From the NCBI RefSeq assembly GCF_007678455.1, contig NZ_VEEP01000005.1:170380-234379 (forward strand): a DNA stretch of 64,000 nucleotides, in the 5' to 3' direction. The translations under genes were made by a program, and so were the position numbers. This document shows positions 1,928 to 6,033 of the stretch, piece after piece (position 1 is the stretch's first letter; every line of letters begins with the position of its first letter). The DNA comes from Cytobacillus oceanisediminis 2691 (GTDB lineage Bacteria > Bacillota > Bacilli > Bacillales > Cytobacillaceae). A model generated the notes under the pieces. That model saw only the letters and a program-made list of their open reading frames with translations. It had not been told where the DNA came from and did no database searches.

Positions 1928-1940
1928 GTGGTCAGACCAC
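1928..1940. promoter_or_regulatory. GntR/FadR-type operator 1
   Basis: GTGGTCAGACCAC has perfect 6-bp arms around one central base. It contains TGGT-N3-ACCA, the operator form known for the FadR branch of GntR regulators. It lies just downstream of the predicted start of transcription, a place fit for repression. The same palindrome, differing only in the central base, recurs at 4069 before accD. The adjacent gntR gene is the obvious candidate for the protein that binds it. Confidence 0.7.
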
Positions 1941-2103
1941 TGAAGTAGGCAGCTTTTTTAAATAATCAGGCCGTTCGCCTATTATTGTGTCGCTGATCTT
2001 TCGCATTTTTCATCGAAGAGAATCTGCCGTAGTCAAGAGTGCGGAATATGATGAATGCAATGATATTGTCGGAGAGAGCCCATAATTAAGGAGTGGACCT
2101 GAG

Positions 2104-3342
2104 TTGACTTTACGTGAAGAAGCTTTGCACATGCATCGTGTGAATAAAGGGAAATTAGAGTCGAAATCGAAAGTGCCTGTAAGGAATGCCAGAGATTTAA
2201 GCCTTGCCTATTCTCCGGGTGTCGCGGAGCCTTGCAAGGAAATATATGATAAGCCAGAAACTGTTTATGATTATACAATGAAGGGCAATATGGTGGCGGT
2301 CGTATCCGATGGCACTGCTGTCCTTGGACTTGGAAATATCGGTCCTGAAGCCGCGCTCCCTGTAATGGAAGGAAAGGCTGTCCTTTTCAAAAGCTTCGCT
2401 GGTGTAGATGCTTTTCCAATCTGCCTAAACACAACGGATGTAGATAAAATTGTTGAAACGGTGAAGCTGCTTGAACCAACATTCGGCGGTGTCAACCTGG
2501 AGGATATAGCTGCACCAAACTGTTTTGCAGTAGAAGAACGTTTGAAAAAAGAGACTAATATCCCTATTTTCCATGATGACCAGCATGGAACGGCAATTGT
2601 GACTGTGGCAGGTCTCGTCAATGCGCTGAAAATCGTCGGGAAAAAAATGAATGAAATCAAGGTGGTTGCCAACGGAGCAGGAGCTGCAGGAATTGCCATC
2701 ATCAAGCTTCTGTATTCATACGGTGTCCGTGACATCATTATGTGTGATACTAAAGGCGCGATTTACGAAGGACGCCCAAACGGCATGAATGCAATCAAGG
2801 ACGAAGTAGCGAAATTCACTAACCGCGACAATGTTGAAGGTTCCCTGGCTGATGCGATCAAAGGTGCAGATGTTTTCATCGGCGTTTCTGTTGCTGGAGC
2901 ACTGACATCAGAAATGGTCGCAACAATGAATAATGATTCAATCATCTTTGCGATGGCTAATCCGGTGCCGGAAATCATGCCAGAGGAAGCAAAGGCTGCC
3001 GGGGCTGCTGTAATTGGTACTGGCCGCTCCGATTTCCCTAACCAGGTGAATAATGTTCTCGCCTTCCCTGGAATCTTCCGTGGAGCGTTGGATGCAAGGG
3101 CTACCCATATCAACGAAAAGATGAAGGTGGCTGCAGTGGAAGCAATCGCTGGGTTGATTGAGGAATCAGAACTCTCAAGCGATTATGTGATCCCCGGCCC
3201 ATTCGATCCTCGTGTAGCACCTGCTGTTGCAGCAGCTGTCGCGAAAGCCGCGATGGAAACAGGGGTTGCACGAATCAAAGTGGATCCTCAGGAAGTCAGG
3301 GAGCGTACTGAACGCCTTGCATTGATTGGAAAAGGTGAGTGA
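2104..3342 (+). CDS. ytsJ: NADP-dependent malic enzyme (YtsJ type)
   Basis: Oxidative decarboxylation of malate to pyruvate, giving NADPH, in the cytosol. The protein has 412 residues, the usual length of the short bacterial malic enzymes. The malic domain shows SLAYSPGVAEPC (about residue 30), SDGTAVLGLGNIGP and the metal/substrate region IFHDDQHGTAIV. A Rossmann domain follows with VANGAGAAGIAI. The start is TTG at 2104, chosen for AAGGAG at 2088-2093. It is followed after 7 bp by a GntR regulator gene and then by accDA. This arrangement fits a role in supplying NADPH and pyruvate for fatty acid synthesis. A GntR operator lies in its leader. Confidence 0.93.
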   Translation: MTLREEALHMHRVNKGKLESKSKVPVRNARDLSLAYSPGVAEPCKEIYDKPETVYDYTMKGNMVAVVSDGTAVLGLGNIGPEAALPVMEGKAVLFKSFAGVDAFPICLNTTDVDKIVETVKLLEPTFGGVNLEDIAAPNCFAVEERLKKETNIPIFHDDQHGTAIVTVAGLVNALKIVGKKMNEIKVVANGAGAAGIAIIKLLYSYGVRDIIMCDTKGAIYEGRPNGMNAIKDEVAKFTNRDNVEGSLADAIKGADVFIGVSVAGALTSEMVATMNNDSIIFAMANPVPEIMPEEAKAAGAAVIGTGRSDFPNQVNNVLAFPGIFRGALDARATHINEKMKVAAVEAIAGLIEESELSSDYVIPGPFDPRVAPAVAAAVAKAAMETGVARIKVDPQEVRERTERLALIGKGE

Positions 3343-3349
3343 TTTCTTA

Positions 3350-3973
3350 GTGGCACAGCCTGAAAAGAGCACGAAAGTATATGTTGAAATCGTCAGGCAG
3401 CTAAGGGAAATGATTAATAAAGACGGCTTGAAGCCCGGAGATAAAATTCCTTCCGAACGTGAACTCTCAGAGCGCCTGAATGCTGGGCGCTCCTCTGTTC
3501 GCGAAGCCTTGCGCGCCCTTGAACTCCTCGGGCTGATCGAGACAAGAAGGGGAGAAGGAACCTTTATAAGGGACTTCCGCGGCAACCAGCTGGTCCAATT
3601 ATTAAGTACCTTTATTCTGCAGGATAAAAAAGCCAAAGATGATGTGGTGGAAACGAAAAACATGATCGAGGCAGATTGTCTATATCTGGCTGCTGAAAAG
3701 ATCCGGGAAGATGAAATCAGAAGATTAAAGGTCTGGATTGATGACCATAATTTTGAGGACGAGGAATTTTTCAGGAAAATTGCCGAACTTGCTGACAATC
3801 ACCTTTTTTATCGAATTTGGTATATATTGAATGATTATTACAAGGCACTTGAGCTGAAAGCAATTCCAGCTGAAAAAGAAGAATACCATCTGTTGCTGGA
3901 CTCGCTTGCAACAAAAAATGGAGAACTGATTCTGAATAGGCATCGCATGCTGCGGAAAATGTCGACGGAATGA
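3350..3973 (+). CDS. GntR-family (FadR/FCD branch) transcription regulator
   Basis: DNA-binding repressor or activator of 207 residues. The N-terminal winged helix is clear (GDKIPSERELSERL, then RSSVREALRALELLGLIE, wing RRGEGTFI). The rest is a short helical FCD-like effector domain. In that domain the usual FH metal-ligand position reads FF (DEEFFRKIAELADN), while two later histidines (EYH, RHRM) remain. GTG at 3350 is chosen because GGTGAG at 3334-3339 is correctly placed; an in-frame TTG at 3326 would overlap the malic enzyme gene. It is probably co-transcribed with the malic enzyme. I infer that it controls both itself and accDA through the two GTGGTCWGACCAC sites. The effector is unknown. 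Confidence 0.85.
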   Translation: MAQPEKSTKVYVEIVRQLREMINKDGLKPGDKIPSERELSERLNAGRSSVREALRALELLGLIETRRGEGTFIRDFRGNQLVQLLSTFILQDKKAKDDVVETKNMIEADCLYLAAEKIREDEIRRLKVWIDDHNFEDEEFFRKIAELADNHLFYRIWYILNDYYKALELKAIPAEKEEYHLLLDSLATKNGELILNRHRMLRKMSTE

Positions 3974-3981
3974 CGACATGA

Positions 3982-4008
3982 AGTAACATCTTTCGAAGAG
4001 AGGATGTT
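3982..4008 (+). terminator. possible weak terminator after gntR
   Basis: An imperfect hairpin with AACATC/GATGTT ends and several wobble pairs follows the regulator gene. There is no immediate U-run; a T-rich tract appears about 45 bp later. It could instead be an mRNA 3' structure. Confidence 0.3.
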
Positions 4009-4068
4009 ATATACTTGTGGACATGCTTATGGTGCCAGGATGGCAGTCTCTCTTTCTTTTTTGCTGTA

Positions 4069-4081
4069 GTGGTCTGACCAC
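4069..4081. promoter_or_regulatory. GntR/FadR-type operator 2, upstream of accD
   Basis: GTGGTCTGACCAC has the same 6-1-6 palindrome as the site at 1928, differing only in the central base. It lies 112 bp before the accD start. I could not find a convincing promoter around it, so its exact mode of action is open. Confidence 0.7.
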
Positions 4082-4192: not shown

Positions 4193-5071
4193 TTGCTTAA
4201 GGAACTTTTTACGAAAACGAAAAAGAAAAAGTACGCGACAATTCCTTCTGAAGCAGCAAAGCAGGATGTTCCTGAAGGAATCATGACAAAATGCCCGAAC
4301 TGCAAAAAAATCATGTATACGAAAGAACTAAATAAAAACTGCAAGGTTTGTATACAGTGTGGTTATCATCATCAAATGAATTCTGCAGAACGAATCGAAA
4401 GTTTCCTGGATTCAGAAAGCTTCCGTGAACTGGATCGGGAAATGGTATCCGGCAATCCGCTCGGATTTCCTGGATACGAAGAAAAGCTTGAAAAGGACCG
4501 GGAGAAAACGGGTCTAAATGAGGCAGTAGTTACTGGCATAGGCACTGTGAACGGATATGATGTCGCCATCGCGATCATGGATGCTACTTTCAGAATGGGA
4601 AGCATGGGATCGGTTGTAGGCGAAAAGATTACGAGAGCGATCGAGAAGGCTGATGAATTGTCCATTCCATTCATCATCTTTACCGCATCAGGCGGAGCAA
4701 GAATGCAGGAAGGTGTATTAAGCCTGATGCAAATGGCGAAAACCAGCGTGGCTTTGAAAAGATTCAGCGATAACGGAGGGTTGATTATCTCCATCATGAC
4801 CCACCCCACCACTGGAGGAGTTTCTGCAAGTTTTGCCAGTCTGGGGGACTATAATTTCGCCGAACCAGGAGCACTGATCGGCTTCGCAGGACGAAGGATC
4901 ATCGAGCAGACAATTCGAGAGGAACTGCCGGAAGACTTCCAGACAGCCGAGTTTTTGCTGAAGCATGGGCAGCTTGATGCAGTGATTTCGAGAGTCGATA
5001 TGAAGGAAAAGATTGCGGGAATACTTGAAATCCATCAGCCAGGAGGGACGTTCGAATGGCAGGAGAACTAG
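4193..5071 (+). CDS. accD: acetyl-CoA carboxylase carboxyltransferase subunit beta
   Basis: Beta half of the carboxyltransferase that moves CO2 from carboxybiotin to acetyl-CoA to form malonyl-CoA, the first step of fatty acid synthesis. The N-terminal four-cysteine zinc ribbon (CPNC near residue 40, CKVCIQC 17 residues later) is typical of AccD. The crotonase-like core carries [12 protein letters not shown] and the oxyanion region [10 protein letters not shown]. The protein has 292 residues and aligns end to end with my memory of the B. subtilis protein. The start is TTG with the strong site GGAGGGGG at 4178-4185. The end overlaps accA by 16 bp, so the two subunits are translationally coupled. 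Confidence 0.97.
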
Positions 5072-6033
5072 AATTCGAGAAACCGGTATTGGAATTAAGG
5101 AAAAAAATCAGTGAGCTAAAGGAATTCACCAAAAATACGGATGTGGATCTCACATCAGAAATAGATAAACTTGAAGCAAGACTGCAAAAGCTCGAATCAG
5201 AAGTTTATGAGAACATGAAACCGTGGGACCGGGTGCAGATTGCCCGTCACCCAAATCGTCCGACGACCCTTGAATATATCTCATTGCTGTTTACCGACTT
5301 CTTCGAATGTCACGGCGACAGATTATATGGAGATGATGAAGCGATTGTTGGGGGAATTGCCAAATTCCATGGCTATCCCGTGACAGTCATTGGCCATCAG
5401 CGTGGGAAAGATACAAAGGAAAATATCCGCAGGAATTTTGGTATGCCGCATCCTGAAGGTTACAGAAAAGCTTTGCGTTTGATGAAGCAAGCAGAAAAAT
5501 TTAAGCGTCCGATCATTTGTTTCATCGATACTAAGGGTGCTTACCCTGGTAAAGCAGCAGAAGAGCGTGGGCAAAGTGAAGCGATCGCCCGTAATCTATT
5601 CGAGATGGCTGGACTTACCGTTCCAGTGATCTGTGTGGTCATTGGCGAAGGTGGAAGTGGCGGAGCACTGGCACTGGGTGTAGGCAATTATATTCACATG
5701 CTGGAAAACTCCACATATTCCGTTATCTCTCCAGAAGGTGCGGCAGCGATTCTTTGGAAAGATTCTTCGCTGGCGAAGAAAGCTGCTGAAACGATGAAAA
5801 TCACTGCTCCTGACCTTAAAGGACTGGGGATCATTGATGAAATCATCCCAGAAGTAAAAGGCGGGGCACATAAAGATTTAAAACAGCAGGCAAAGTATAT
5901 GGATAAAATTCTAAAAGACTCGATGTCAGAACTTCTGGTTTTGGATGAAGAGACATTGCTGAGCCAGCGCTATGAGAAATATAAACGAATTGGCGAGTTT
6001 TCGTTTCCAACGGAATTTATCGGGGTAAAATAA
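5056..6033 (+). CDS. accA: acetyl-CoA carboxylase carboxyltransferase subunit alpha
   Basis: Alpha subunit of the acetyl-CoA carboxylase carboxyltransferase, forming an alpha2beta2 complex with AccD. The protein has 325 residues, as in B. subtilis. It has a coiled N-terminal helix pair (about residues 5-55), then the crotonase-fold core with [40 protein letters not shown] and [10 protein letters not shown]. The gene starts inside accD and ends at a strong intrinsic terminator at 6032. Confidence 0.97.

Follow-up and report, generated by a model that had tools for sequence, protein, structure and literature searches.

The window, by which we mean the whole stretch of 64,000 nucleotides analysed from Cytobacillus oceanisediminis 2691, contains the genes dnaE, malic enzyme, gntR, accD and accA in this order, together with two copies of a palindrome, referred to here as operator 1 and operator 2. 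The features of the locus are:

1886-1913, + strand: predicted promoter of malic enzyme and gntR (TTTACA, 16 bases, TATATT); the pair is kept 5' of operator 1 in relatives
1894-1899: alternative TATAAT for the malic enzyme-gntR promoter
1928-1940, no strand assigned: operator 1, GTGGTCAGACCAC, an exact palindrome match
2104-3342, + strand: NAD(P)-dependent malic enzyme, ytsJ-like (Pfam malic and Malic_M)
3350-3973, + strand: gntR, FadR-type GntR regulator of 207 aa (Pfam GntR and FCD); start taken from aligned relatives
4010-4023, + strand: candidate accD promoter (-10 TATACT at 4010-4015, GGACA at 4019-4023), without a clear -35; recurs in relatives at an approximately constant distance from the gntR stop
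4033-4045, + strand: short hairpin followed by a T-rich stretch, a weak candidate for a gntR terminator or leader hairpin
4069-4081, no strand assigned: operator 2, GTGGTCTGACCAC, an exact palindrome match
4193-5071, + strand: accD, acetyl-CoA carboxylase carboxyltransferase beta subunit (TIGR00515, 417.5 bits, cut-off 317.45)
5056-6033, + strand: accA, carboxyltransferase alpha subunit (TIGR00513, 529.3 bits, cut-off 319.3)

The original prediction held that the two palindromes are the same and that they flank the regulator gene, one just after the malic enzyme promoter and the other before accD. Both statements were borne out: GTGGTCNGACCAC matches without mismatch at just two places in the window, GTGGTCAGACCAC and GTGGTCTGACCAC, the first lying beyond the TTTACA-16-TATATT pair and the second upstream of accD, with gntR between them. 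By chance, 64 kb should contain approximately 0.004 exact matches (64000/4^12); two of them beside one regulator gene are thus far from chance. Matches with up to three mismatches were at chance level (15 found, shuffle mean 12.2), as were promoter-like matches in the window alone (4 found, 3.8 expected). Thus, the case for the promoter at 1886-1913 rests on its conservation in relatives. Terminator-like sites numbered 3 in the window, with 2.3 expected by chance. Alignment of relatives places the start of gntR most likely at GTG 3350, rather than at the mechanical open reading frame start at 3326. This is 7 bases after the malic enzyme stop, making co-transcription of malic enzyme and gntR likely.

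The gntR product contains an N-terminal GntR winged helix (PF00392, 69.7 bits, cut-off 27), which was identified in all 55 members of alignment A2 and is nearly invariant among the aligned relatives. The all-helical FCD C-terminal domain (PF07729) scored 24.9 bits against a cut-off of 24.3, and was recognized in 33 of the 55 members at E <=0.1. The predicted structure, with a mean pLDDT of 86.9, has seven helices after the winged helix. Its best Foldseek match was a GntR of Streptococcus agalactiae (E 2.6e-8), with moderate TM-scores of 0.37-0.64 over the first 20 matches. Matches in the Protein Data Bank were general GntR and FadR-type structures only, the best (77.5 bits) being to the DNA-binding domain of a FadR-family regulator. 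Judged from the profile match and the predicted structure, the C-terminal part of the protein forms a short, helical, FCD-like domain. Metal-binding FCD regulators have a metal site with conserved histidines. In the FCD-like domain these are absent, no histidine column after residue 75 being conserved in at least 85% of the 55 sequences. F141, a phenylalanine in 51 of the 55, aligns with the FH of a paralog; the stretch aligned there spans only part of the metal site. From the lack of conserved metal-site histidines our guess is that the effector may be a CoA ester or another central metabolite. The regulator scored above the cut-off in none of the 25 NCBIfam families listed, of 28. By regulator sequence, the closest named relatives are Bacillus sp. 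ISL-37 (90%) and Mesobacillus subterraneus (85%).

To follow the regulator beyond the window, we searched genomes at three taxonomic depths. A match was found in 149/151 genomes of the family at E <=1e-20, where four (G006, G013, G058 and G138) matched only at 1e-21 to 1e-25 and may be paralogs, in 163/199 genomes of the order at 1e-35, and in 148/299 genomes of the class at 1e-30, the gene context of the last being checked for the 20 that were fetched. We fetched 90 loci from the family, 80 from named relatives, 40 that represent 39 families of the order and 20 that represent the class. Some species occur in both the family and the named set, so that these two are not to be summed as independent. 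The exact 11-base core of the operator, TGGTCNGACCA, lies before the first gene after dnaE in 85/90 family, 77/80 named, 40/40 order and 16/20 class loci, and four further loci (one family, three class) have it with one mismatch. Operator 1 is thereby kept down to 33-48% regulator identity, the level of the class representatives. Conservation around the palindrome drops beyond approximately 7 bases from its centre. At up to one mismatch, operator 1 is missing in 8/230 fetched loci (four family, three named, one class). L024 and L029 have only ~170 and ~250 bases of upstream sequence, while the upstream sequence of L050 and L376 runs into a contig end, and in the genome of L050 the 13-mer adjoins dnaE on another contig. 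The other four, L049 and L163 (the same Robertmurraya contig) and L197 and L203 (Fredinandcohnia onubensis), seem to be truly without operator 1, and represent two species.

The negative control consisted of 20 listed genomes out of the 36 in the order that lack the regulator. In each of them dnaE lies upstream of accD, with malic enzyme between the two in 14 and not in 6. The operator core is missing from the fetched stretch in 20/20, even at one mismatch, and searches of the 20 whole genomes for the 13-mer gave no match. Of the 40 order genomes with the regulator, 28 contain a single match and 12 contain none, the site in the latter differing in an outer base. A further 27 family genomes gave 27 matches in 19 genomes. 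All 55 matches in the 87 whole genomes are at the gntR-accD locus, with homologs of dnaE, malic enzyme, gntR or accD in their flanks; the reversed 13-mer matched once in the family genomes and once in the order set. The 12-mer TGGTCTGACCAC, searched in 15 genomes, was at the locus by coordinates in 22/22 matches (reversed control, 5). The original prediction depended on the palindrome being conserved where the regulator gene is. It is conserved there, and in the genomes scanned the 13-mer is found only at this locus. From this co-occurrence, the operator and the gntR gene travel together. A wider regulon was considered and rejected, as no 13-mer lies outside the locus in the 87 genomes and no 12-mer in the 15, in searches that weaker sites would escape.

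In the window's own genome there are exactly three copies of the core TGGTCNGACCA: operators 1 and 2, and one in the form TTGGTCAGACCAA. The third copy is at the start of a gene for an FAD-linked oxidase (glcD/dld-like), divergent from a different FadR-type GntR gene (L001:1499-1513 and 1667-2377; G000:C332). TTGGTCAGACCAA is probably the own operator of this neighbouring regulator, and cross-binding between that regulator and the accD-linked gntR protein is possible. A one-mismatch scan of the same genome gave 83 matches per strand, versus 182 for the reversed pattern, and so carries no information.

A promoter recurs 5' of operator 1, usually as TTTACA with TATATT, TATAGT or TATAAT. In scans made without a shuffled control, it scored at least 9 of 12 in 83/83 scanned family and 33/40 order loci, and the -10 was separated from TGGTC by 11-19 bases in 64/83 family and 33/40 order loci. 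For the remaining 19 family loci, the top-scoring pair has its end 22-36 bases 5' of operator 1; in the window's genus this pair involves an alternative TATAAT overlapping the same region. An operator just past the transcription start is typical of repression. The position of operator 1, mostly 11-19 bases beyond the -10, is thus that of a repressor site, and it is from this position that we infer the direction of control.

The genes downstream of operator 1 differ in their constancy. Between dnaE and gntR, malic enzyme is missing or survives as a short fragment at 15 loci (L057, L064, L088, L090, L168, L172, L178, L198, L202, L274, L364, L367, L369, L370 and L383), some of which are from related species; L376 was left out since its contig starts there. 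In all 15, gntR is still preceded by an exact operator 1 and followed by accD. L198 and L274 retain short fragments of malic enzyme (54% and 48% identity over short stretches) downstream of an intact operator 1 and ahead of gntR, a pattern resembling decay of the enzyme gene with retention of the operator and regulator. By comparison, accD follows gntR in every fetched regulator locus, including 20/20 of the class, except L173, which is at a contig end. The gap between gntR and accD is 40 bp or less in 5/40 order, 7/20 class, 1/79 named and 0/90 family loci. In the closest cases the genes overlap, and with gaps of -1 to 35 bp they must form one operon in several species. Operator 1 precedes gntR itself, and probably also serves accDA in loci where accD directly adjoins gntR. 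Since accD is constant and malic enzyme is lost at 15 loci, we conclude from these gene orders that operator 1-gntR-accDA is the old unit, with malic enzyme as a common extra. The joint regulon of malic enzyme and accDA proposed in the original prediction consequently stands in part: the operator is kept with the regulator, but malic enzyme is not an essential member.

Operator 2 has a much narrower distribution. Among the 90 family loci it is exact in 38, present as GTGGTCTGGCCAC in 34, carries another single mismatch in 5 and is missing in 13; it is found in 44/79 named loci, and in 0/40 order and 0/20 class representatives. Therefore, of the two operators originally proposed, operator 1 is widespread, while operator 2 was found only in the window's family and the named relatives. 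Operator 2 is mostly ~90-105 bases past the gntR stop, regardless of its distance to accD, and downstream of a recurring TATAxT...GGACA, the candidate accD promoter. Rather than coinciding with the candidate -10, it lies ~50 bases beyond, and a one-sided mismatch is common in it; this distance suggests that a bound protein may act as a roadblock. Most simply explained, accDA would have acquired a promoter of its own in this lineage, and the second operator would have kept accDA under the same regulator. Across the window and family loci L005-L094, the change in operator 2 is one-sided, with A to G at +2 in 34/76 versus the mirror change in 3/76, and the centre is T in 72/77. By eye, L039, L042, L049 and L058 have a hairpin and T-run directly 5' of operator 2, after the candidate accD promoter. 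These hairpins could be a gntR terminator or an attenuator, and are not general.

Taken together, we consider it likely that the locus encodes a dedicated autoregulatory FadR-type repressor of accDA and gntR. Its targets would include malic enzyme where this gene is in place, and an additional operator would serve accDA where it has its own candidate promoter. What we observe is the gene order, the co-occurrence of operator and gene, the promoter-operator geometry and the uniqueness of the 13-mer in the scanned genomes; binding, repression and co-transcription are predicted from these. The product of the gene at 3350-3973 would bind AGTGGTCWGACCACT-like palindromes. At operator 1, approximately +8 to +20 from the predicted start site, the bound protein would prevent malic enzyme and gntR from being transcribed, along with any read-through into accDA. 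In the window's family, where accDA has a longer leader and its own candidate promoter, the protein would retain control of accDA through operator 2. In the class Bacilli relatives examined, the constant targets would be gntR and accDA (malonyl-CoA supply), with malic enzyme (NADPH, pyruvate) as a frequent but optional member.

The protein might instead control only itself and malic enzyme through operator 1, with accDA as a bystander and operator 2 as a minor site. Such an arrangement would fit with operator 1 being the constant site and operator 2 being missing in 13/90 family loci and all 60 wider representatives, and in the 35/40 order and 13/20 class loci with a gntR-accD gap above 40 bp accDA may have separate promoters. 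We nevertheless judge it improbable, since the 15 loci with lost or eroded malic enzyme keep regulator and operator, with accD still beside gntR, and since gaps of -1 to 35 bp must mean one operon in several species. The direction of control could also be reversed, the protein activating rather than repressing, for example from operator 2 or via polymerase recruitment. FadR of E. coli both activates and represses, and operator 2 is far from a promoter core, but activators rarely act from positions beyond the -10, and operator 1 has such a position in nearly all loci; activation is thus very unlikely.

That operator 2 is an RNA hairpin in the accD leader, not a protein-binding site, would be in line with its directional bias, both the T at the centre and the A-to-G change at +2, which would convert U-A to U-G and is far commoner than C at -2. 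A T-run is also present within 32 bases upstream of operator 2 in 68/77 loci, an uncontrolled count. However, folding of the 58 upstream bases was near that of shuffled sequence (mean z -0.28, n=75; 17 below -1 and 6 below -2), the consensus fold is one 4-bp hairpin at -2.1, A-C at -7/+7 breaks the pairing in 10/76, Rfam gave no match near a gathering score, and the sequence of operator 2 equals that of operator 1. We regard such a hairpin as scarcely probable; an RNA-level role of operator 2 is unsupported by folding, consensus fold and Rfam. A general leader terminator before accD was likewise rejected: T-runs are common, but folding is on average no better than shuffled.

We compared the regulator with known systems. 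E. coli FadR has an N-terminal GntR domain, a helical C-terminal domain and a role in fatty acid metabolism, and its TGGTC-N-GACCA-type operator resembles the present one. The regulator here is shorter, scores far below the FadR equivalog cut-off (33.5 vs 249.2 bits), and has a single-locus operator at malic enzyme-gntR-accDA, whereas the FadR regulon is scattered. LldR and PdhR, of lactate and pyruvate metabolism, are the top NCBIfam matches of the FadR subfamily and share the operator type, but the scores are far below their equivalog cut-offs (82.9 vs 311 and 67.5 vs 330 bits) and their target genes are other ones. FapR of B. subtilis, another member of this class, acts on the transcription of genes for fatty acid synthesis, and belongs to a different protein family from the GntR regulator. 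The sequence conserved with gntR is a TKGT-N3-ACMA palindrome. According to a 2015 survey, the FadR-subfamily consensus is TKGT/ACMA, typically with 3-nt spacing (PMC4494728), and the assignment of TGGT-N3-ACCA to the FadR branch in the original prediction agrees with it. The survey covers 18 FadR-type factors of Bacilli, and its main text does not contain the words ytsJ, malic, malonyl or Bacillales. The predicted operator of MSMEG_0596, a FadR-type regulator of Mycobacterium smegmatis, is given as GTGTGGTCAGACCACAC and contains the same 13-mer (PMC2018728). The operator sequence type itself is thus already known; MSMEG_0596 is actinobacterial, and the comparison made here covers its operator.

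In B. subtilis, accDA has been reported to be constitutive and outside the FapR regulon, a further difference from FapR, and no mechanism controlling malonyl-CoA synthesis or accDA had been identified as of 2017, according to PMC5437119. Three promoters have been described for B. subtilis ytsJ, in a paper in which accD does not appear (PMC10433868). Among the literature matches listed, none describes the regulator by title or abstract; a prediction in a database or supplement could exist. FadR-type autoregulators as such are known. The putative FadR-type autoregulator-operator pair at accDA is undescribed in the literature searched.

Acetyl-CoA carboxylase makes the committed precursor of fatty acids. 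There is an about even chance, in our estimation, that the regulator represents the missing transcriptional control of this enzyme in Bacilli. It would be an ancient single-locus repressor, extending from the window's family to distant families, that senses the carboxylase product or precursor and was lost where accDA is constitutive. The second operator would have been gained when accDA acquired its own promoter, and malic enzyme would be a passenger that couples NADPH supply. A regulatory link that outlasts the loss of one target and the separation of another is a clean case, and a single-locus operator kept in many families of the class makes it testable which metabolite is sensed and how species that lack the regulator manage.
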